Shown here: positions 270 through 12,217 of the stretch, piece by piece
Layout of the letters: each line of letters begins with the position of its first letter
Position numbering within the stretch: position 1 is the stretch's first letter
Assembly (NCBI GenBank): GCA_014860445.1
Contig: JACZJT010000052.1
Span: forward strand, 62,001 to 126,000
From: Burkholderiales bacterium
GTDB taxonomy: Bacteria; Pseudomonadota; Gammaproteobacteria; Burkholderiales; SG8-39
Length of the DNA stretch: 64,000 nucleotides
Direction: 5' to 3'
The notes under the pieces: generated by a model
The model's input: the letters and a program-made list of their open reading frames with translations, nothing else
The model's database searches: none
Told to the model about the DNA's origin: nothing
Position numbers and translations under genes: made by a program

Positions 270-1502
270 TCAAAAATTAAAACGAACCTGTAGATACACG
301 TTGTCGTCGTGCGAGAGTTGCCCGAACTGGCCCCAGGGCTTGCCGCCAAAGACGTTGGCGCCGATCGCTCCCCACACCTTGTCGGTGAAGCTGTAGCGCA
401 GCTCCGGGTTCACGAATCGGTCGCCGTTGCTGGCGTTGTACGAGGCATACGCGGAAAGCCGCAGGGTCTGATGCCGGAAGAACTGCGTCAGCCGCGCCGT
501 GACGGTATGGTTCCAGCGCTTTTCCACCGGGAAGCCTGCGGGCAGCGCCGCGAGATAGGCCCCATAGTCCTGCATGATTTCGGCGTAATACTGGAACGCG
601 AGGGAAAGGTCCTCGGCCGGTTGAATCTGGTAGCCTGCCAGCAGTCGGGTCTGGGAGTTGGGCACGGTAAAGTCGCTGCCCGACCGGTCCTGACGCGAGT
701 CATAGTAGGCGGCCTCCAGGCTCAGCACACCGTCGCCGGCCCGGCCGGAGACGCTGGCGCCATAGACCGAGAGCTGCGGGTAGAAATAGCTGATCTTGGT
801 CGGCGCCGTCATGCTGTCCGGCCGCATCGATGGCGTGCGCTGGAAGCCGCGATACAGGTAGAGCGCCGCGTCGTAGCCGGCGACATCGCGGTAAATGCGC
901 AGGCCGACATCGCCCTGGCCTGGCTTGATCGTCTCGCGATTCATGACCGCCGGCATCGGGTCGTAGAGATGAAAGCGGTTCGCATCCGGTATGCGGCTCT
1001 CTCGGAAACCCGGCGACAGCACCAGTTCGAAGTTGGCGAACTCGGGATAGGCGCCCAGCTTCACTGCATCCACGCCGCGCTTGAGATATTCCAACGGTCG
1101 CCCGGCGAAGAGCGCCTCGTGGTCCTTGGGAAAGACATCGTTGACGAATACCAGGTCGCCCAGTCCCCAGGTGATGACCTGCCGGCCGATCCGCATATCC
1201 CAATTGCCGGCGGTGTAATCGACGTAGCCCTCGCGCAGTTCGGATTGGTCCTGACGGCCGAGGTGATCATAGGAAAAGTCGCCCTTGGCCAGCAGCCGCC
1301 ACGCGCCGCCGCTAGCGTCTAGCTTGAGCTGGGCGCGCTCTTCCAACCACTTGTAATGGCGCCCGTCCGGGTTCGCCGCTACGGTGTTTGCGGCCGTGTT
1401 CTGCTGCAGGAAACCCGAAAGCGCGACCTCTGCGCGCGCCGCCGGGGGCGCCAGCAGAAGGACGAAGCAAAGTGCAGCGAGGCGTGACATCATTCGACCC
1501 AC
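270..1502 (-). CDS. outer-membrane beta-barrel-like protein associated with an MMPL exporter
   Basis: 410 aa ORF, signal peptide, alternating aromatic/beta pattern, C-terminal YLQVRFNF ending in F. Confidence 0.7.
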   Translation of the reverse strand: MGRMMSRLAALCFVLLLAPPAARAEVALSGFLQQNTAANTVAANPDGRHYKWLEERAQLKLDASGGAWRLLAKGDFSYDHLGRQDQSELREGYVDYTAGNWDMRIGRQVITWGLGDLVFVNDVFPKDHEALFAGRPLEYLKRGVDAVKLGAYPEFANFELVLSPGFRESRIPDANRFHLYDPMPAVMNRETIKPGQGDVGLRIYRDVAGYDAALYLYRGFQRTPSMRPDSMTAPTKISYFYPQLSVYGASVSGRAGDGVLSLEAAYYDSRQDRSGSDFTVPNSQTRLLAGYQIQPAEDLSLAFQYYAEIMQDYGAYLAALPAGFPVEKRWNHTVTARLTQFFRHQTLRLSAYASYNASNGDRFVNPELRYSFTDKVWGAIGANVFGGKPWGQFGQLSHDDNVYLQVRFNF

Positions 1503-2278
1503 TTGCGCAACGGTTGCCGCAGGAATCTCTCCGAAAACAGGCTGTCCTCAATACCGAGGTTGTAGCCGGTGTTGAGGTAAGCGACCTCGGTGCGGTGGCC
1601 CGTCTGCAAGTTCTTCATGCTGCGCTTCACCACCGTGGGAATGCCCTGAACGTCCGCCACCTCGTCGGCCGTGAATACCTTGTAGGGGGCTCCCTTCTTG
1701 TCGAACTGCTCCTCCTTCAGCGGCAGGAAAGTCGACGTGTCCACCCAGGTCAGCTTGTAGCCAAAATCGGCGTCGGTGCCTTTGGGCGTGCTCTTCACCA
1801 CGTAGCAGTCGCGATTACCGACTTTTCCCTCGCGCTCAATCACGTGGTTGTCGTCCTCGAGGTCGCGGCCGGAGACATCCTCATAGGTAAAGTCCGAGCC
1901 GACGAAGCTGGAGCGCTTGTCCTGCGCGGCGATGCGCTTGACCATGTTGATGGCCGGGATGAACAGCCAGCGATCGTCGTCCTTGGCCGGGTACTTGTAG
2001 GTCATGAAGCTCATGTCCTTCACATCCGCCGGCCTAAAGAAGTACATGAAATATTTCTGCTCGCCGCCCGCCTCCCCCATGTTCTTGCGCAGCATGGTGA
2101 GTTCGCGCACCCGCTCCTGGCCGCCCTTGTTGATGAGTTTCATCACCACCCGCGCCTTGAAATCCGTGCCCGGATAGAGGAAAGCCGCCTGGGATTTCTT
2201 CATCACTTCCTCGCCTGTGAGGGCAAAGGCCTGCAGCGGCAGCAGGCCGGCAATTATCCATATCCACCAGCGTTTCAT
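1490..2278 (-). CDS. outer membrane lipoprotein-sorting (LolA-like) protein
   Basis: MKRWWIWIIAGLLPLQAFA signal peptide; family-like DDRWLFIPAINMVKRI and SSFVGSDFTYEDVSGRDLEDD segments; sits between the MMPL and OMP genes. Confidence 0.8.
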   Translation of the reverse strand: MKRWWIWIIAGLLPLQAFALTGEEVMKKSQAAFLYPGTDFKARVVMKLINKGGQERVRELTMLRKNMGEAGGEQKYFMYFFRPADVKDMSFMTYKYPAKDDDRWLFIPAINMVKRIAAQDKRSSFVGSDFTYEDVSGRDLEDDNHVIEREGKVGNRDCYVVKSTPKGTDADFGYKLTWVDTSTFLPLKEEQFDKKGAPYKVFTADEVADVQGIPTVVKRSMKNLQTGHRTEVAYLNTGYNLGIEDSLFSERFLRQPLRKWVE

Positions 2279-2279
2279 T

Positions 2280-4628
2280 TCAATCTCCTTTCGAATGTGC
2301 GGCAACCGCTATGGCCGCCGGCTTGGGTTCGTCGAGCAGCCAGTTGCGCCCGAGCATGACCAGCGCGGGCAGATAAAGGACGGTGAGCAGCGCCGAGAGC
2401 AGCATCATCGCCACAATGAACGCTCCCACCGCAATGTAGGGCGTGAGCGGCGCGAACAGCATCACCGAAAAGGCCGCCGCAAACAGCAGCGCATTGCGCA
2501 GTATCCCCTTGCCCGGTCGCGATGCCGTCCACAGCAGCGCCTCGCGCACCGCTGCCTCGCTCCTGCCGCCATTCGACTCGGCCAAGCGCTGGCGGAAGCG
2601 GCTGACGAAATGGATGGCAAAATCGACGGCCATGCCCAGCGACAGCGTGCTTAGCACCGACAGCGGCATGTCGAAATCCTTGCCGGTGAAACCGACTACA
2701 CCATAGATGAGCAGGATGGTGAACAGCAACGGCACGTAGCCGATCAGGGCCCATTTTGCCGAGCGGAACGCGAGGGCAAGGATGGCAAACACCACCACCA
2801 GCGCCAGCGACAAGCCCAGCACCATATCGCCCAGCACCTCGTCGTTCCATACCAGATTGAAATAGGCAATGCCGGCCGGTTTCACCGTCACCGCCAATGG
2901 ATGGGCCTGCTGATAGGTCTGCGCCGCGTGGATCACCTGGCGCATGGCTTCCGCATCCCAGGTCTTGAGCTGCACCCACAGGTTGGCCTTCTGGAAGCCG
3001 GAATCGATCACGTTGTCCAGATCCGATGGCTTGGCCGACATGCTGAACAGGAAAAGATATTGACCGACCGTGTCCTGCGTTTCCGGAATGGTGTCGAATT
3101 TCGGGTCGTCGTCGTGCAGCACGCGGTTGATGCGCTTCACATAGTCGGCTACCGAAAAGGTCTTGCCCACCACGGGCATGCCTTCCAGGTCGCGCTGCAA
3201 TCCTTCCAGCCAACGCATGGCCTCCGGCCGTTTCATGAACTCGGGTTCCTTGGACTGCACCACCAGATAGCCCAGGGAAGTGCCACCCAGCGCCTGGTTC
3301 ATCGCCGTATCGGCCACGCGGATCTCGCTCGATTGCTTGAACCAGGCGACGAGGTTATTGTTGATGTGGATTTTCGTCGTGCCGACGATGGCCACGGCCA
3401 TCATGACGACACCCAGCAGCGCGACGGCCAGCGGGCGATCGGTGCCGATCCTGCCGATACCACGCAGCAAACGCGCGCTGCGGTCCAGTTCGACGCTTTC
3501 GTTAGCGGCGGCCTGGGCGATCTTATCCTCCTTGACGAAGGTGAGAATCGCCGGGATCAGGCTGAAGGAGAACAGCCGCAACACCACCGTGCCGAAGGCG
3601 ATCAGCCCGCCAAACACTTTCACCGGCACGATGTTCATGAACAGCAGCACGGCGAAGCCGGCGGCAGTGGCGAGCGCGGTGTAGCGCACCGGCCGGCTCA
3701 CCGCCTGCATGGTCTCTCGAATCGCCGCCAGTTTGTCGTGCTTCTCGCGGTAGCGGAAATAGAACTCGTTGAAGATGTGGATGCTGTCGGTGGCAATGGC
3801 CATGAGGAACACCGGCGCCATCGAACTCATGATATGCACCGGAAAGCCGGCTCCGATCAACAGGCCCATGCTCCAGATGATGGCAGCCATGGCCACCGCC
3901 ATCATGGCGATGGACAGCGCGAGGTTGCGAAACATGAGTTGGATGGCGATGAACATGATCATGCCCGCGATCGGCGAGAAGATGCCCATCAGCTTGAACA
4001 TCTCGGCGCCAAAGGTATCGCGCGCCACGGGGTCGCCGGCAATGTAGTAGCGCTCCGGGCCGTTCTCCGCGGCCACGATGGCGTGGATCTTGTTGGCGAT
4101 CTCGGCGCCGTTGGCGCCCTTTTCCAGCGGCACGTAGATGGCCGTGGTCTTGCCGTCTTTCGAGATTACGCGATCGACCAGGAGCGGGTTACCGAACAGG
4201 GCGCCGCGCAAGGCCTCGACCTCGGCATCCGTCTTGGGCGCGCCCGGCATCAGCGGTCCGACCTTGAGCGTGCCGGCTTCGGCCGTGACGTTGGTGATGG
4301 TGGTGAAGCCGTTCACGTCGCGGCTGGCCACGCCTGGAAGCGCAAGGATTTTGTCGGTAATGTGGGCGATGCGGCCCAGGGTTTCCCGATTGAGCACCCC
4401 CGCGTCGTTTTCCACGCCGACGACGATGGTGTCTTCGTAGAGCCCGAAAGTCTTGTCCACCTCGTCATTCCAGACACGCACGTCGGACGTATCCGGTAGC
4501 ATGTGCTTGGGATTGGTGTCCGTGCGGATTTTCGGAAACTGGGTGAGGAATAGCAGCGTGAGTGCCACCGTCGCCCAGACAACCAGTTTCGGACGGCGGA
4601 TGGAGAATTCGACCAATGAGAATTTCAT
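2280..4628 (-). CDS. MMPL/RND family transporter
   Basis: About 780 aa from MKFSLVEFSIRRPKLVVW; two repeated multi-TM halves (SMAPVFLMAIATDSIHIFNEF, LSLGMAVDFAIHFVSRFRQ). Confidence 0.9.
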   Translation of the reverse strand: MKFSLVEFSIRRPKLVVWATVALTLLFLTQFPKIRTDTNPKHMLPDTSDVRVWNDEVDKTFGLYEDTIVVGVENDAGVLNRETLGRIAHITDKILALPGVASRDVNGFTTITNVTAEAGTLKVGPLMPGAPKTDAEVEALRGALFGNPLLVDRVISKDGKTTAIYVPLEKGANGAEIANKIHAIVAAENGPERYYIAGDPVARDTFGAEMFKLMGIFSPIAGMIMFIAIQLMFRNLALSIAMMAVAMAAIIWSMGLLIGAGFPVHIMSSMAPVFLMAIATDSIHIFNEFYFRYREKHDKLAAIRETMQAVSRPVRYTALATAAGFAVLLFMNIVPVKVFGGLIAFGTVVLRLFSFSLIPAILTFVKEDKIAQAAANESVELDRSARLLRGIGRIGTDRPLAVALLGVVMMAVAIVGTTKIHINNNLVAWFKQSSEIRVADTAMNQALGGTSLGYLVVQSKEPEFMKRPEAMRWLEGLQRDLEGMPVVGKTFSVADYVKRINRVLHDDDPKFDTIPETQDTVGQYLFLFSMSAKPSDLDNVIDSGFQKANLWVQLKTWDAEAMRQVIHAAQTYQQAHPLAVTVKPAGIAYFNLVWNDEVLGDMVLGLSLALVVVFAILALAFRSAKWALIGYVPLLFTILLIYGVVGFTGKDFDMPLSVLSTLSLGMAVDFAIHFVSRFRQRLAESNGGRSEAAVREALLWTASRPGKGILRNALLFAAAFSVMLFAPLTPYIAVGAFIVAMMLLSALLTVLYLPALVMLGRNWLLDEPKPAAIAVAAHSKGD

Positions 4629-4659
4629 AGTGATGTGCTCCCTTAAATCGATAATCCGT

Positions 4660-5316
4660 TCAGTGAAGTCCGGGCGCGACATCGGCCGCTACCGCAACAA
4701 AGGCGCCGCAGCAGGGCGCCATTCGTTCCAGATGCGGCTCGGCCCAGCGCGCGACACGGCCTCCGCCCGGGAGCATGATGGCGGTGCGCAGCGTGAGGTT
4801 GCGCGCCGGCTGTCCTGCAAACAGGCGCTCGACTTCACGCCGTGTATGCCAGTGCGCGCCCCAATAAGCGCCACGGCCGCCATCGCGCCCTTTGGTGAAC
4901 CAGAGCAGGCTGTGCCGGTTGAGTAGTCCGAGCGCGACGCGGCGGCGGGCAACCCGCAGCATCTCCATCAGGGCGCGACGCGCTTCGCGCATGAAGCAGA
5001 GGGCAGTCACGCTGGTCACCAGATCGAAACTGCGGTTGGTAAAGGGGAGGCTCTGCCCGTCCGCGGCAACATAGATCGCCTTGCCGCGACCGGCGGCGAA
5101 GCGCGCCGAGGCAAAATCGACATCAGCCCCCACGGTCCAGTCGACGGCCGCGCTATCGGAAAAGCGACGCGTAAAATAGCCGGTGCCGCAGCCCACATCC
5201 AGCACGGTTTCTCCGAAACGCGGTGTCAGAAGCTCGTCGAGCAAGCGATATTCGATGCCTCCGATCCATGCGCCGCGCGGTGTCGTGTACCATTCTTCAT
5301 ACTGTTCCGGCTGCAT
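4660..5316 (-). CDS. class I SAM-dependent methyltransferase
   Basis: SAM motif VLDVGCGTGYFTRRF, followed by VTSVTALCFM. Confidence 0.85.
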   Translation of the reverse strand: MQPEQYEEWYTTPRGAWIGGIEYRLLDELLTPRFGETVLDVGCGTGYFTRRFSDSAAVDWTVGADVDFASARFAAGRGKAIYVAADGQSLPFTNRSFDLVTSVTALCFMREARRALMEMLRVARRRVALGLLNRHSLLWFTKGRDGGRGAYWGAHWHTRREVERLFAGQPARNLTLRTAIMLPGGGRVARWAEPHLERMAPCCGAFVAVAADVAPGLH

Positions 5317-5384: not shown

Positions 5385-6611
5385 TCACTGCCCCTGCTGC
5401 AGGACAATGCGGCTTCGAAACACCTCGTATGCAATCGGCTCAGTGTTCTCGTAGCCGATGCGCGCGCGCCGCGCCTCGTCCAGCAGGTGGTATCGAACCA
5501 CGGCCTCGACCGCCGCCGGCTTGCCTGCGGCCGGGACGTCGATGCGATAGCTGCGCGGCTGGTTGCGCGGCAGGCGCGTGTCCCACAGGTCGATGATGAA
5601 GGGGCGCCACATGGTGGTGCGTTTCAGCGAGTGATTTTCTTCGGCTAGCGTTTGCCCATTGCGGTCGAGCACGCGCAGGTGCACGGTCAGATGGCGGTCC
5701 GGCGTCCCGGTAGGCAGAAAATGGGCCGCGCCTACATTGGTCAAGCTCAGTGCGTAGGCGCGCCGGTCCGCCCCGATCTCGGCGAAGCGGATATCCAGTG
5801 CTTGTTTCACCGTCGCCGGGTCGTGCCCGCCGCGCCACAGGTGGCGGCGCGCCTTCCGCACTGGGCCGCCATCGACCAGCGCACGCTCGACCGCCGGCAT
5901 GTGGCACTGCACGCAGCCGAGCTCGCTCGCGTCGCCCACCGCCAACTCGCCGCTGCGACCTTTCCACTGGCCCCCGCCGGCCGCAATCTCGGCCGCGGTG
6001 CCGCAGGGCGGATAGCGGAAAAAGGTATCCCAGCGCTCGCCCTGGACCACGTGACAGCGCAGGCAGATCTCGTTCGCATCCGCGAGTTTCTCCACCGGAT
6101 GGGATGCATCGACGTCGCCAATGGGGCCGAGCATCTTTCCATCTTTGTAGTGGCACGCTGCGCAGGTCACGCCTTCGTGCTGCAGCTTGGCATCGAAATC
6201 GGGGTTGTCGGCGAGGATGGGTTTCAATTTCTCCGCGTCGCTGAAGCCGAGCACCTTGTATTCCTGTTGCCGGTCGAGGGGAATGTGGCAGTTCTTGCAA
6301 ATCTGCTGCAACTCGTCGAACTTCCAGTCGACCTGGAAGTAGGGATCGGTCCAGGCCTGGCTATGGATGCTCGTTTTCCATTCGGCATAGATCTCGCGGT
6401 GGCAGGCGCCACAGGTGCTGGCCCGCAGCGCGTCCGTCGACATGGACGATTTGCTGGTGTCCATCGGGCGCTCGAAGTTCTCTGTCACGACGAAGATGTT
6501 CATCGGACGCACCAGGCGCCAGCCGAGGAAGACCGCGAAGATAGCGATACCGATACCGACAATGATGGCCCGCTTTCGGGTCATGGCCATGTCGAGCCCC
6601 CTCGGCAGCAC
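5385..6611 (-). CDS. membrane-anchored multiheme c-type cytochrome (5 CxxCH)
   Basis: CGACH, CKNCH, CAACH, CLRCH, CVQCH motifs; N-terminal TM segment RAIIVGIGIAIFAVFLGW; likely start at an internal Met near 6584-6590. Confidence 0.88.
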   Translation of the reverse strand: MLPRGLDMAMTRKRAIIVGIGIAIFAVFLGWRLVRPMNIFVVTENFERPMDTSKSSMSTDALRASTCGACHREIYAEWKTSIHSQAWTDPYFQVDWKFDELQQICKNCHIPLDRQQEYKVLGFSDAEKLKPILADNPDFDAKLQHEGVTCAACHYKDGKMLGPIGDVDASHPVEKLADANEICLRCHVVQGERWDTFFRYPPCGTAAEIAAGGGQWKGRSGELAVGDASELGCVQCHMPAVERALVDGGPVRKARRHLWRGGHDPATVKQALDIRFAEIGADRRAYALSLTNVGAAHFLPTGTPDRHLTVHLRVLDRNGQTLAEENHSLKRTTMWRPFIIDLWDTRLPRNQPRSYRIDVPAAGKPAAVEAVVRYHLLDEARRARIGYENTEPIAYEVFRSRIVLQQGQ

Positions 6612-6656: not shown

Positions 6657-7007
6657 TCAGAATACGATCACTTTGTCGGCCCACTGCGTCCAGGACGTCA
6701 GTTCGGCGAGAGTCCCTCTGTAGGTTCCCTCCAAGAGCTCGGGATCGGTGATCCCGCGCGCATCCATGCAGGTTCCGCACACACCCACTTCGGCCTTGTT
6801 GCGCACAATGCGACCGAGCATGAGCTGAATGTTGTAGTAACCCTCGGGCACCTTTTGTCCGCCTTTGGCGCAGGACGCCGCGTCGCCTATCAGAAACAGC
6901 TTCACTTCCTCGTCCTCCGCCTTCGACAGGGATCCCGCGAGGCGCAAGCCGTTATAGCTGCGCTCGCTGCCGTAGGGAGCATCGTTCAGGATGAATAGGG
7001 TTTTCAT
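6657..7007 (-). CDS. DsrE-family protein
   Basis: MKTLFILNDAPYGSERSYNGLRLAGSL...LFLIGDAASCAKGGQ...GVCGTCMDARGI. Confidence 0.85.
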   Translation of the reverse strand: MKTLFILNDAPYGSERSYNGLRLAGSLSKAEDEEVKLFLIGDAASCAKGGQKVPEGYYNIQLMLGRIVRNKAEVGVCGTCMDARGITDPELLEGTYRGTLAELTSWTQWADKVIVF

Positions 7008-7027: not shown

Positions 7028-8014
7028 TTATGGTCCGGATTCATGTGCGATCGCGTATCCTTCCTTGTTCCACTGTTCCATGCCGCCGCGGAGGATACAG
7101 ACGTTGGTAAAGCCGGCCTGTTTGAGCTGGCTGGCGGCGGTCAGCGAGCGCTTGTGGGTTCTACAGACCAGCGTCAGCGGCTGCTGCTTCGACTGTTCGA
7201 GTTCCGCCAGTCGCGCAGGTAGTTCGGCGAGCGGAATGTTGCGCGCGCCTGGGATGTGGCCGAGCGGGCCTGTAAAATCGCCCGCGTCGCGGAGGTCGAT
7301 CAGCAGTGGTTTGTCGCTTTGTTCGAGCCTGCCTTTGAGACTGACGCCGTCGATCCAACGGATGCCGGCCTGGCGATACTGTCGTACCAGCCGGGGCAGG
7401 AAAGCGACGAACGCCAGCAGCGCTAGCGCCAACAATGCGTTACGGATTGCGCCAGCCTCTCCGGCAAGCGCTTCGCGCCCCGCGTGACCGAGCCACGAAT
7501 AGGCGAGCGCGCCGGGAAACATGCATACGAAGGAGGCAGCCGCGTAGGCGAGCAGCGGGATACGCGTCAGGCCGAGCGCGTAATTCACCAGGTTGAAGGG
7601 GAACAAGGGCACCAGTCGCACGAAAGCGACAAAGCGCCAGCCTTCGGCCTCCACGCCTTCGATCAGTTGCTTAAGCCTGCCGCCGGCGCGGCGCGCGACC
7701 CAGTCGGCGGCGAGATAGCGCGCGACAAGGAAGGCGAGCGTTGCGCCCAGCGTGGCGCCGGTCAGGCTGTACAGCGCTCCGGGGATGGCGCCGAACAGCG
7801 CGCCTGCCGCTAGCGTGAGCACCGATCCGGGAAGGAACAACACGGTCGCCGCCGCATAGAGGGCGATAAAGGCCAACGGTGCCCAGACGCCAACCTCGGC
7901 CAGCCAACTCGAAAGTGCGTCCGCGCTCAGCGCCTCGCGGTTGGCGAAACCGAAGGCCAGACCCGCGGCCAGCGCCAAAGCGAGCCCGGCGCGAGCTACG
8001 TTACCTGGCTTCAT
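7028..8014 (-). CDS. TVP38/TMEM64 (DedA-like) membrane protein fused to a C-terminal rhodanese domain
   Basis: LPGSVLTLAAGALFG and FPFNLVNYALGLTRI membrane part; C-terminal LLIDLRDAGDF...GHIPGARNIPL...LVCRTHKRS rhodanese. Confidence 0.88.
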   Translation of the reverse strand: MKPGNVARAGLALALAAGLAFGFANREALSADALSSWLAEVGVWAPLAFIALYAAATVLFLPGSVLTLAAGALFGAIPGALYSLTGATLGATLAFLVARYLAADWVARRAGGRLKQLIEGVEAEGWRFVAFVRLVPLFPFNLVNYALGLTRIPLLAYAAASFVCMFPGALAYSWLGHAGREALAGEAGAIRNALLALALLAFVAFLPRLVRQYRQAGIRWIDGVSLKGRLEQSDKPLLIDLRDAGDFTGPLGHIPGARNIPLAELPARLAELEQSKQQPLTLVCRTHKRSLTAASQLKQAGFTNVCILRGGMEQWNKEGYAIAHESGP

Positions 8015-8870
8015 GATCCGAATCCGATTCGCTCCCGATTGCATAGCCGCCGCCCGCGTTCACGAACGGAAGCGCAAGCAACCCGGTGAGTTTGACCGCC
8101 TGTTCGCTGCCGGTCAGCCCCTTCACGCCGATTGCCATGCTCTCCTGCGGCAGGCGCGCGCTCTCGCGATAGGTGCCGCACAGCCGGTCCCACCAGGGGA
8201 GGTTGAAACCGAAGTTACTGTTCGTCTCGGCTACCTCCATGGAATGATGAATGCGATGCATCTCGGGTGTCACCAGTATCCAGCGCAGCAAGCGATCGAC
8301 CGGCGCGCGCAGCCGCAGATTGGCGTGGTTGAACATCGCCGTGGCGTTCAACAGCACCTCGAACACCAATACCGCGGCGGCCGGCGCCCCGAGCACCGCT
8401 ATTGCCGCGAACTTAATCAGCATCGACAGCAAGATTTCGATCGAATGAAAGCGCGCGCCGGTGGTCACGTCGATGTCCGCGTCGGCGTGATGTACTCGGT
8501 GCAGGCGCCAGAGCACCGGCACGGCGTGAAACATGACGTGCTGCAAATAGATGACGAAATCGAGCGCAAGCACCGACAGTGCGAACGCCCACCAGAACGG
8601 GATCTCAAAAGCGTTCAGCAATCCCCAGCCGTGCTCGGCCGCGCGCAGCGCGAATCCAACCGCCGCAATCGGAAACAGCAGGCGCAGAATCAGACTGTTC
8701 AACACTACCAGCGCCAGGTTGTGCAGCCAGCGAACGCGCCGCGGCAGCAACCGTACCCGTCTGGGCGCCAGGGCCTCCCACGCCGCCATCAGCGCGAACA
8801 CGCCGAAGAAGGCGCTTAGGCGAACGGTCGGTTCGTGGGCCAACGCCCATTCGTTAAATGTCATGCTCAT
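8001..8870 (-). CDS. sterol desaturase / fatty acid hydroxylase superfamily protein
   Basis: Histidine boxes HVMFH, HRVHH and HRIHHS in a multi-TM protein. Confidence 0.88.
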   Translation of the reverse strand: MSMTFNEWALAHEPTVRLSAFFGVFALMAAWEALAPRRVRLLPRRVRWLHNLALVVLNSLILRLLFPIAAVGFALRAAEHGWGLLNAFEIPFWWAFALSVLALDFVIYLQHVMFHAVPVLWRLHRVHHADADIDVTTGARFHSIEILLSMLIKFAAIAVLGAPAAAVLVFEVLLNATAMFNHANLRLRAPVDRLLRWILVTPEMHRIHHSMEVAETNSNFGFNLPWWDRLCGTYRESARLPQESMAIGVKGLTGSEQAVKLTGLLALPFVNAGGGYAIGSESDSDHEAR

Positions 8871-8910: not shown

Positions 8911-8945
8911 TATAATACAACTATTCAACCAAGTACTAGAATAGT
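8911..8945 (+). promoter_or_regulatory. candidate promoter and ArsR-type operator for 8960 (and possibly the divergent operon)
   Basis: TTGCGT 8889-8894, 16-bp spacer, TATAAT 8911-8916; perfect inverted repeat ACTATTC (8920-8926) N12 GAATAGT (8939-8945) immediately downstream. Confidence 0.6.
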
Positions 8946-8959
8946 AGGGAGCTACGGCA

Positions 8960-9622
8960 ATGATGTCAACAGATAATTTCAAGCAGGACGTACATGCCCA
9001 GCTCGCGCGGGTAGGGAAAGCCCTGTCAAGCGGCAACCGGCTGGAGTTATTGGACTTCGTCGCGCAGGGGCCGCGCAGCGTGGAGGAACTGGCGACCATG
9101 ACGCGGCTCTCGGTCGCAAACGCGTCGAAGCATCTGCAGGAACTGCGCCGCGCAGGGCTGGTACGGGCACGAAAGGAAGGCCTGAGGGTGTACTACGAAG
9201 TGGCGGGGCCGGATGTGGTGGACTTGATCGCCGCGCTGGGACTGGTCGCCGAGACGCGGCTCGCCGAAATGGCACACTTGGTGCGCACCTACATCAGCGC
9301 GCGTGACGAGCTGGAACCGATCGCTGCCGCCGAATTGCTAAAACGTTCGAAGCAGGGGCTGGTGACCGTGCTCGACGTACGCCCGGCCATAGAGTACGCC
9401 GCCGGGCATTTGCCGGGCGCGATCAACGTTCCGGTCGAAGACCTGACTAAACACCTTAGAAATTTCCCCAAAGGACGCGAAGTCATCGCCTATTGCCGCG
9501 GCCCATACTGCCTGCTCTCGGTGGATGCGGTGGCATTGCTGCGCGCCAAAGGCTACAAAGCGCGCCGGATGGAGGACGGTTTCCCGGAGTGGAAAGCGTC
9601 CGGACTACCGGTCGAGGCCTGA
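8960..9622 (+). CDS. ArsR-family HTH regulator fused to a rhodanese domain
   Basis: wHTH EELATMTRLSVANASKHLQELRRAGLVRARKEGLRVYYE; rhodanese VLDVRPAIEYAAGHLPGAINVP...AYCRGPYCLLS. Confidence 0.92.
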   Translation: MMSTDNFKQDVHAQLARVGKALSSGNRLELLDFVAQGPRSVEELATMTRLSVANASKHLQELRRAGLVRARKEGLRVYYEVAGPDVVDLIAALGLVAETRLAEMAHLVRTYISARDELEPIAAAELLKRSKQGLVTVLDVRPAIEYAAGHLPGAINVPVEDLTKHLRNFPKGREVIAYCRGPYCLLSVDAVALLRAKGYKARRMEDGFPEWKASGLPVEA

Positions 9623-9841: not shown

Positions 9842-12217
9842 GTGCATCCACCGGCCCGGCTTATGACGGCGACAGCATCCGCGATGACCCTGCCGAGAGC
9901 GCCCCGCAACGCGGGCTCGTCCTACCAGAACTCCATGCCCAGCCACTATTCGAAAGGTGCGCGGGTCCTATCCATGCTGGCCTTCAGCTATGTCGCTTTC
10001 GCCTTCATCAACGAGCGCTTCCTGCATTTATTTGCGCGCGCAGACGGCACAGCCCCGTTGTGGCTGAGTCACTGGACCGAGTACGCCGTTATCCTGGCGT
10101 TCGGGGTGTGGCGCACTCTGGCCGAAAAGAATCCCTATACCCGCAAGCGGCTCGGTTTTCTGATCAGTGCAGTTGCCGTGTTCTGGTGGATCATTCCGGA
10201 CTATTTGCGTTTGCCAGAACCCTACATCGGTGCGTTGCCGGGACAGCCGATATTTCCGCAGTTACACGCCCCCGGCACCTTGACGTTTTTCACAATCCTG
10301 CTGCTAGTGCTGTTGTTCGGTCGTCGCGTGGTGTGCGGCTGGAATTGCCCCTGTGTCGGCATCCGCGAAACCGTTGGTTTCGCTTTCCGCGAAAAGACTC
10401 TGCGCAGCAGCACGGCGTGGAACTGGCGCTACACCAAATGGTTTTTCTTCGCGCTCTATATGATCGCCTTCGTGCTGATCATGTTCTCGGGCACGGCCTA
10501 CGTGTCGCCGTTCTATAGCGGATTCCTGGCACTGGTCGGCGTCACCTATTTCGGCTCCTTCTTTATCGCGCCCCTGACCGGCAACCGCTTTTACTGCCGT
10601 TATCTGTGCCCTTACGGGGCCACTTTCGGGCTACTCAACCACATCGGCTACTACGGCATCCGCATGGACAAGGATGCCTGCGTCGATTGCCGGCGTTGCG
10701 AACAGGTCTGCGATATGGGCATTCCGGTCTGGCAGCAAGGCAAAGATCACGGGCGCGTCACCGGGCTGGAGGATTGCATGGGGTGCGGGCGCTGCGTGGT
10801 GTCCTGCCCCACCGACGCGCTGGAGTTCCGCGACGTGCGTAACGAATTTCTGCCGAAACTGCGCATGGACGGCTCCTATCTGTTGAAACGCGCAAGCCCG
10901 TCAGAAATCGCACCCCGAATTGAGCCGTCAAAGCGCGCAGCCTCAGTCCGGCGCGAAGACTGGCAAGAAGATTGCCAGTCGCTGAGCTTGATTGACGCCA
11001 TGGCCCAGGCTCAGCGCTGCCTCGATTGCGGCGTGCCCGGCTGCCAAAATGCCTGCCCGCTTCACAACCGCATTCCGGAATGGCTGCAGGCCTTGGGCAA
11101 AGGCGACGTTGAGGCTGCAGCGGCCATCAGCCACAGCACCAGCAACCTGCCGGAAATTTGCGGCACGGTATGCCCCAGCCATCGCCTGTGCGAAGGCGCG
11201 TGCACGCTCAATGCCAGGAATGGAGCCGTTATCATTGGCGCATTGGAACGCTTTGTTACCGAAGAGGCCTTCCGCAAAGGGTGGACGCCACAAGGCAGGA
11301 AAGGGCCCGCCAACGGCAAGACGGTCTCCATCATTGGCGCCGGTCCGGCTGGTTTGGCCTGTGCGGACGAACTCAACAAGTCAGGCTTCGATGTGACCGT
11401 TTACGATAAACGGGACGAGATTGGTGGCCTGCTGACCTACGGCGTTCCATCCTTCAAGTTGGACAAGGCGGCCATCGTGCGCCGCAGGAGATTATTTGAA
11501 GAGGCGGGCATTAACTTTGTGCTCGGCGTCGATGTCGATTCACAACGGTTACAGCGGCTGATCGACACCAACGACGCCGTGTTCCTGGGATCCGGGGCCC
11601 AGCGGCCGCGTGTCACGAACCTTTCTGGGCAAGAGCTTGAAGGCCTCAGCGACGGACTTGAGCACCTCTCCATACTCAATACCAGCCGACTCTGCGCATC
11701 CCAGGCTGCCCCGGATATGATGGGTAAGCGTGTCCTGGTTCTCGGGGGCGGCGACACCGCGATCGACTGCGCCCGTAGCGCCGTGCGCCAGGGCTCGGCC
11801 GACGTTACCATCGCTTACCGCCGCGGCCCGGAGCAAATGCGCGCGTTCCCGAAAGAGATTGCCTACGCCCGGGAAGAAGGCGTGAACTTCGCTTTTCACC
11901 AAACGCCCGAAGCGCTCGTCGGCGAGGAGAAACTACGAGGTATTCGCTTCAACAACAGCGCCGACGGGCATGGAAACGTCCACGCCTGCGACGTTGCCAT
12001 CGTAGCATTTGGCCAGGACGCTGATGACAACGGCTGGCTCAAACACCTGAACATCGCTACCGACGATCGCGGTTTTTTCGTCGTGGATGAAAACGGCGGG
12101 ACAACTCACCCCAAGGTTTTCGTAGGCGGAGACAATAGCCACGGACCAGACCTCGTTGTTACCGCCGTTGCAGCAGGGCGACGTGCCAGCCAAGGTATCC
12201 TGGCTTCGTTGCAATGA
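9842..12217 (+). CDS. NapH/CcoG-like membrane polyferredoxin fused to a GltD-like NAD(P)H-dependent flavoprotein
   Basis: CGWNCPC, CRYLCPYG, CVDCRRCEQVC and CMGCGRCVVSCP; then CLDCGVPGCQNACP, GAGPAGLACADEL, GGGDTAIDCARSA; one uninterrupted 791-aa ORF, start possibly 9864. Confidence 0.9.
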   Translation: MHPPARLMTATASAMTLPRAPRNAGSSYQNSMPSHYSKGARVLSMLAFSYVAFAFINERFLHLFARADGTAPLWLSHWTEYAVILAFGVWRTLAEKNPYTRKRLGFLISAVAVFWWIIPDYLRLPEPYIGALPGQPIFPQLHAPGTLTFFTILLLVLLFGRRVVCGWNCPCVGIRETVGFAFREKTLRSSTAWNWRYTKWFFFALYMIAFVLIMFSGTAYVSPFYSGFLALVGVTYFGSFFIAPLTGNRFYCRYLCPYGATFGLLNHIGYYGIRMDKDACVDCRRCEQVCDMGIPVWQQGKDHGRVTGLEDCMGCGRCVVSCPTDALEFRDVRNEFLPKLRMDGSYLLKRASPSEIAPRIEPSKRAASVRREDWQEDCQSLSLIDAMAQAQRCLDCGVPGCQNACPLHNRIPEWLQALGKGDVEAAAAISHSTSNLPEICGTVCPSHRLCEGACTLNARNGAVIIGALERFVTEEAFRKGWTPQGRKGPANGKTVSIIGAGPAGLACADELNKSGFDVTVYDKRDEIGGLLTYGVPSFKLDKAAIVRRRRLFEEAGINFVLGVDVDSQRLQRLIDTNDAVFLGSGAQRPRVTNLSGQELEGLSDGLEHLSILNTSRLCASQAAPDMMGKRVLVLGGGDTAIDCARSAVRQGSADVTIAYRRGPEQMRAFPKEIAYAREEGVNFAFHQTPEALVGEEKLRGIRFNNSADGHGNVHACDVAIVAFGQDADDNGWLKHLNIATDDRGFFVVDENGGTTHPKVFVGGDNSHGPDLVVTAVAAGRRASQGILASLQ

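Follow-up and report, generated by a model that had tools for sequence, protein, structure and literature searches.

The window analysed here, a 64,000-nucleotide stretch of contig JACZJT010000052.1 from a Burkholderiales bacterium, contains at 9842..12217 a gene whose product joins a NapH-like membrane polyferredoxin to a GltD-like flavoprotein in a single chain. The features of the locus to which we refer are as follows.

4660..5316, minus strand: SAM methyltransferase; a homologue follows the HAO-like pentahaem gene in several gammaproteobacterial operons
5385..6611, minus strand: membrane-anchored pentahaem cytochrome, c554-like; possibly a partner of the fusion, though not a consistent one
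6657..7007, minus strand: DsrE-family protein (CGTCMDARG); a frequent cluster member
7028..8044, minus strand: VTT-domain membrane protein fused to rhodanese; a conserved neighbour
8001..8870, minus strand: fatty-acid hydroxylase/sterol desaturase family membrane protein; a conserved neighbour
8920..8945, no strand assigned: putative ArsR operator ACTATTCAACCAAGTACTAGAATAGT, just 3' of a TATAAT box
8960..9622, plus strand: ArsR-type regulator fused to rhodanese (loop CRGPYC), divergent from the fatty-acid hydroxylase gene and upstream of the fusion
9842..12217, plus strand: NapH-like membrane polyferredoxin/GltD-like flavoprotein fusion, 791 aa, GTG start, no internal stops
9842..10840, plus strand: N-half of the fusion, residues about 1-333, with about six predicted TM segments, CX3CP motifs at 165-171 and 252-257, a 2x[4Fe-4S] ferredoxin at 280-322 and the napH match at 150-330
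10913..12214, plus strand: C-half of the fusion, residues about 358-791, with GltD-type 2x[4Fe-4S] and FAD and NAD(P)H Rossmann domains

The sequence-only reading had taken 9842..12217 for a one-polypeptide fusion of NapH-like and GltD-like parts, and this was borne out by the open reading frame, by Pfam and NCBIfam and by homologues in other genomes. Pfam places Fer4_5 at residues 144-183, paired Fer4 at 273-328, Fer4_20 (the GltD/DPD-type 2x[4Fe-4S] domain) at 371-480 and Pyr_redox_2 at 494-779. Both halves are real, though each falls under its curated NCBIfam cut-off: the N-half matches napH with 86 bits over 150-330 (cut-off 213) and the C-half gltD_gamma with 454 bits over 358-790 (cut-off 483). 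Matches in the PDB are confined to the GltD half (6s6s, 8.9e-84). All the motifs quoted earlier are present, namely CGWNCPC at 165-171, CRYLCP at 252-257 and two ferredoxin clusters, together with CLDCGVPGCQNACP, GAGPAGLA and GGGDTAIDCARS. By our count, a hydropathy scan supports about six TM segments, every one of them before residue 250 and TM2 weak; positive loops would place the CX3CP motifs, the ferredoxins and the flavoprotein on the cytoplasmic side, and a conserved PxFPxxHxPGT stretch, found along with an extra N-terminal TM part, is predicted to be periplasmic. The start codon is uncertain, conservation being low over the first ~14 residues; translation could begin at M8 or M15. Structure prediction from a three-row alignment returned a mean pLDDT of 33. 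A YRR motif at 659-661 is present in the window's genus and absent from most copies outside it. In DsrL this motif has been described as a rule for NADP(H) preference (PMC7596348), and since most copies outside the genus do not keep it, cofactor preference may differ among the fusions.

The unusual architecture, and nothing else, could suggest that a sequencing or assembly error had joined two genes. We find this scarcely credible: 17 other full-length homologues, at 47-91% identity and from many families and independent assemblies, share the identical join, which rules such an error out. Across the 18 aligned full-length sequences (window copy included), 21 of 21 motif cysteines are invariant. 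The window's genome has one full-length copy as well as several GltD-like proteins without the N-half, and four further genomes of its genus have homologues, one truncated at the N-terminus. Nor is the fusion a common, characterised enzyme, scoring as it does under the curated cut-offs; it was found in 17 of 386 other class-sample genomes from 14 families (some of the 17 partial or frameshifted) and in none of 398 other phylum-sample genomes, where the window's own genome was the sole carrier, and since two candidates were scored per genome these counts are lower bounds. It also occurs in four of 57 genomes from the order of carrier G428, which is taken to be Sulfurifustis variabilis skN76, a cultured sulfur oxidiser. 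Viral contigs held no relative, and plasmid records only AegA/GltD-type partial matches. The fusion is uncommon, yet it recurs in at least 15 families of sulfur-oxidising bacteria. In a quick small tree its C-halves grouped as a single clade (SH-aLRT 98), apart from the six stand-alone GltD-like rows, which supports a single origin and, given the small outgroup set, does not prove it; the window's genus sits on its own long branch in both the C-half and the N-half trees. Two irregular copies were also seen. In L036 9467-11876 (G019, same genus) the fusion lacks ~157 N-terminal residues and directly follows a truncated second ArsR-rhodanese copy, which would reflect either an internal deletion or an assembly join, and in L048 8988-11250 (G467) it lies in two frames, split near residue 208.

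Several known systems share parts of this design. Like the fusion, AegA and YgfT (formate-dependent urate utilisation, PRK12769/PRK12809) place ferredoxin clusters before a GltD-type flavoprotein in one chain, and proteins of this type align over residues 252-787 at 38-40%, with NCBIfam spans of 354-790 and 273-788. However, the fusion stays under both curated cut-offs (410 vs 1003 and 335 vs 1154 bits), and to our knowledge AegA and YgfT have neither a NapH-like TM module nor adjoining multihaem cytochromes. With GltD, the NADPH-glutamate synthase small subunit (TIGR01318; PDB 6s6s, 2vdc), the C-half shares Fer4_20 and the FAD and NADPH Rossmann domains. Unlike GltD, the fusion has a membrane module, scores below the cut-off given above and stands without GltB, as had been said earlier, there being none among the neighbours annotated within ~10 kb. 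The quinol-dehydrogenase ferredoxin proteins NapH and MauN (TIGR02163) have TM segments, two CX3CP motifs and two ferredoxin clusters in common with the fusion, which departs from them in its low napH score, its extra N-terminal TM part, the PxFPxxHxPGT stretch and the joined flavoprotein; no nap genes were found among the neighbours scanned around it. DsrL, the NAD(P)H:acceptor oxidoreductase of the rDsr pathway, likewise combines a GltD/NfnB-like flavoprotein with extra [4Fe-4S] clusters, and DsrL-2 shares the YRR motif with the window copy. DsrL, however, is soluble, carries a C-terminal ferredoxin besides an N-terminal one and no membrane module, and is encoded with dsr genes (PMC7596348), whereas the fusion has its TM module at the N-terminus and lacks the C-terminal ferredoxin. 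Outside the window, at G000:C1:63309-72588 in the same genome, two GltD-like matches, possibly DsrL, lie within 10 kb of dsrA. Searches of an open-access library turned up neither the architecture nor the operon described below, which within that scope is no proof of novelty.

Locus flanks were fetched and then mapped by gene call and tblastn. Outside the window's genus the gene order is fatty-acid hydroxylase, VTT-rhodanese, (DsrE), fusion, (di-haem cytochrome), octahaem, pentahaem and methyltransferase, divergent from the ArsR-rhodanese gene; membership varies by locus, and in L044 and L045 the rhodanese parts are absent. Gene ends overlap at 4074/4077 and 3328/3331 in L037 and at 11070/11073 in L045, which suggests co-translation. 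Each of the 17 loci fetched from outside the genus has an HAO-family octahaem cytochrome, or at least a part of it, beside the fusion. This octahaem matches HAO structures (4n4j, E 2.6e-65), and the pentahaem of these operons is HAO-like as well. With PF13447, eight CxxCH motifs and a cross-link segment that is without Tyr in 12 of 12 sequences, the octahaem would by sequence belong with the Tyr-less HAO-family reductases (Kuenenia HAOr, Campylobacterota Hao, PDB 6h5l), from which it differs in its N-terminal membrane anchor and in being encoded with an NAD(P)H-wire fusion and rhodanese/DsrE genes. HAOs without the cross-link Tyr are held to be reductive (PMC12758564, PMC8940962), so the octahaem should act as a reductase. 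In L042 12243-13639 (G136) the octahaem gene is broken by stops and gaps next to an intact fusion, and the fusion may thus have other partners.

The regulator resembles a sulfur sensor. Its rhodanese loop CRGPxC is invariant in 12 aligned fused copies, and the ArsR domain is without a conserved cysteine. Between the fatty-acid hydroxylase and ArsR genes sits TTCAA-N8-TTGAA, which is kept in distant families. By our own reading, 8 of 13 loci carry it without a mismatch, allowing one mismatch brings the number to 12, and allowing two takes in all 13. In its longer form the operator pattern is unique in the window, with 0 expected in shuffles, and a regulon search found exact sites in the promoter of the operon itself in several genomes. 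Control of the operon by the ArsR-rhodanese repressor is probable, and since related ArsR-type repressors sense sulfane sulfur (PMC10451225), we infer that this one may read it too. Elsewhere, a further DsrE-family gene on the minus strand of L036 (8528-9055, G019) has an exact ATTCAA-N8-TTGAAT site ~130 bp upstream and possibly belongs to the same regulon; an operator-like site beside an NnrS-like gene in G428 may be chance.

Of the 17 class-sample carriers, 16 have a dsrA match at E<=1e-90, compared with 104 of the 369 non-carriers (Fisher p 4.6e-8, without phylogeny correction and with two candidates scored per genome in the class scan), and the 17th carrier, G332, has dsrA fragments. The window's genome carries dsrA and soxB, and in G467 soxB lies ~4 kb from the fusion. 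A Thioalkalivibrio arsenite paper with DsrE/rhodanese matches was judged irrelevant.

Our preferred reading, to which we give a probability of roughly one half, is that the fusion would be a membrane NAD(P)H dehydrogenase which, in sulfur oxidisers of the rDsr type, feeds a multihaem reductase in the periplasm. On the cytoplasmic side the GltD-like half would pass hydride from NAD(P)H to FAD, the YRR motif of the window copy pointing to NADPH as donor; single electrons, in the direction that we infer, would then run from FAD along four [4Fe-4S] clusters into the NapH-like module in the membrane, and from there either to quinone or straight to multihaem cytochromes that are anchored in the membrane and face the periplasm. 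The architecture makes such a flow from NAD(P)H through FAD and [4Fe-4S] to the membrane likely, and the single-chain wire envisaged in the sequence-only reading gains backing from the domains, motifs and invariant cysteines, as does its general idea of a periplasmic multihaem partner from the HAO-family cytochromes adjoining the fusion in other families. In most carriers the terminal partner would be the neighbouring octahaem, acting as a reductase. Given an rDsr sulfur-oxidiser operon under probable ArsR-rhodanese control, the purpose would most likely be to use NAD(P)H for the reduction of a sulfur compound (or a nitrogen oxide) that arises in the periplasm during sulfur oxidation. NapH-type modules are known to act with quinols, and GltD-type flavoproteins as parts of soluble complexes. 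Linking NAD(P)H to periplasmic multihaem proteins in one chain would be a new means of exporting cytoplasmic reducing power, and our comparisons suggest an undescribed route by which electrons from NAD(P)H may leave the cytoplasm. Because the fusion is associated with sulfur oxidisers of the rDsr type, with a regulator of the rhodanese type and with Tyr-less HAOs, it offers a testable entry to two questions, namely the role of Tyr-less HAO proteins in sulfur oxidisers and how periplasmic sulfur becomes available to the cytoplasm. Experiments are feasible, as Sulfurifustis variabilis skN76 is a cultured and fully sequenced carrier.

The whole cluster could also be there for a different stress, nitrite or NO for instance. 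The same wire might instead feed an octahaem that reduces nitrite, NO or hydroxylamine, for detoxification or ammonification in sulfur oxidisers living with nitrate. Among solved structures, those closest to the octahaem belong to HAO-family enzymes whose substrates are nitrogen compounds, Tyr-less Hao has been linked to nitrite reduction (PMC8940962), and nitrite is reduced by the Tyr-less Kuenenia HAO (Ferousi 2021, as cited in PMC12758564). We nonetheless regard this nitrogen-oxide version as somewhat unlikely, because the regulator, the membrane protein and the small neighbours are of rhodanese/DsrE types, nearly all carriers have dsrA, and no nitrogen gene is a constant neighbour. One may also turn the flow around, so that periplasmic oxidation of a low-potential sulfur compound would reduce NAD(P)+ and supply reductant for CO2 fixation. 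This would suit carriers that are sulfur oxidisers, the sulfur/sulfide couple lies near the NAD(P)H couple, and DsrL, as cited above, shows that in sulfur metabolism a protein of the GltD type can serve as an NAD(P)H:acceptor oxidoreductase. With no ion-pumping subunit in the cluster, and a Tyr-less HAO type that is predicted to be reductive, such a reversal seems to us very doubtful.

Returning to the membrane dehydrogenase that feeds a periplasmic reductase, the cluster might, in a proposal we consider quite unlikely, serve reductive sulfur mobilisation in rDsr sulfur oxidisers. NAD(P)H electrons would be wired to the octahaem, which would cleave periplasmic zero-valent or polymeric sulfur and yield persulfide; VTT-rhodanese and DsrE would bring this sulfur into the cytoplasm, and ArsR-rhodanese would be a persulfide sensor over the whole cluster. 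If true, it would address how sulfur from the periplasm gets to the oxidation pathway in the cytoplasm; a 2024 account names SoxT1A as the sole importer demonstrated for this step, and as one that falls short of a general solution (PMC11582611).

In the window's genus the fusion is kept together with homologues of ArsR-rhodanese, the fatty-acid hydroxylase, VTT-rhodanese, DsrE and the methyltransferase. An octahaem was not found in the window's genome, in a search where positive controls matched, and as the genus is without octahaem yet has the fusion, the octahaem cannot be essential everywhere. The sequence-only reading had named the 5385..6611 cytochrome (408 aa) as a plausible partner, and this part of it gains only weak support: elsewhere the neighbours are the HAO-family octahaem and the HAO-like pentahaem, and within the genus, where several compared assemblies are incomplete, the cytochrome is found in two of five fusion genomes (G000 and G019; not G013, G020 and G023). 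It also occurs in G012 and G022, where the fusion was not found (both assemblies incomplete). This occurrence rejects it as an obligate partner in general; it may be the partner in some strains. The wire, a multihaem partner in general and an uncommon enzyme are what stand of that interpretation, which had not included the ArsR-rhodanese, VTT-rhodanese and DsrE sulfur context, the operator or the dsr association. For this genus, the fusion might simply be a membrane NADPH:quinone oxidoreductase for redox balancing, with no dedicated haem partner, the reductase having been lost or never gained. The missing octahaem, the inconsistent c554-like cytochrome and the long branch of the genus in both trees are consistent with this, but the genus has retained the sulfur-type neighbours and the operator, and we think it unlikely. 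A weak HAO-like match lies elsewhere in the genome of a same-genus relative (G023:C389:867-1247). LolA-like and MMPL transporter genes recur near the cluster in distant genomes (window 1490-4682; L044 12961-17875), accompanied in L044 and L045 by a DUF1302 gene.
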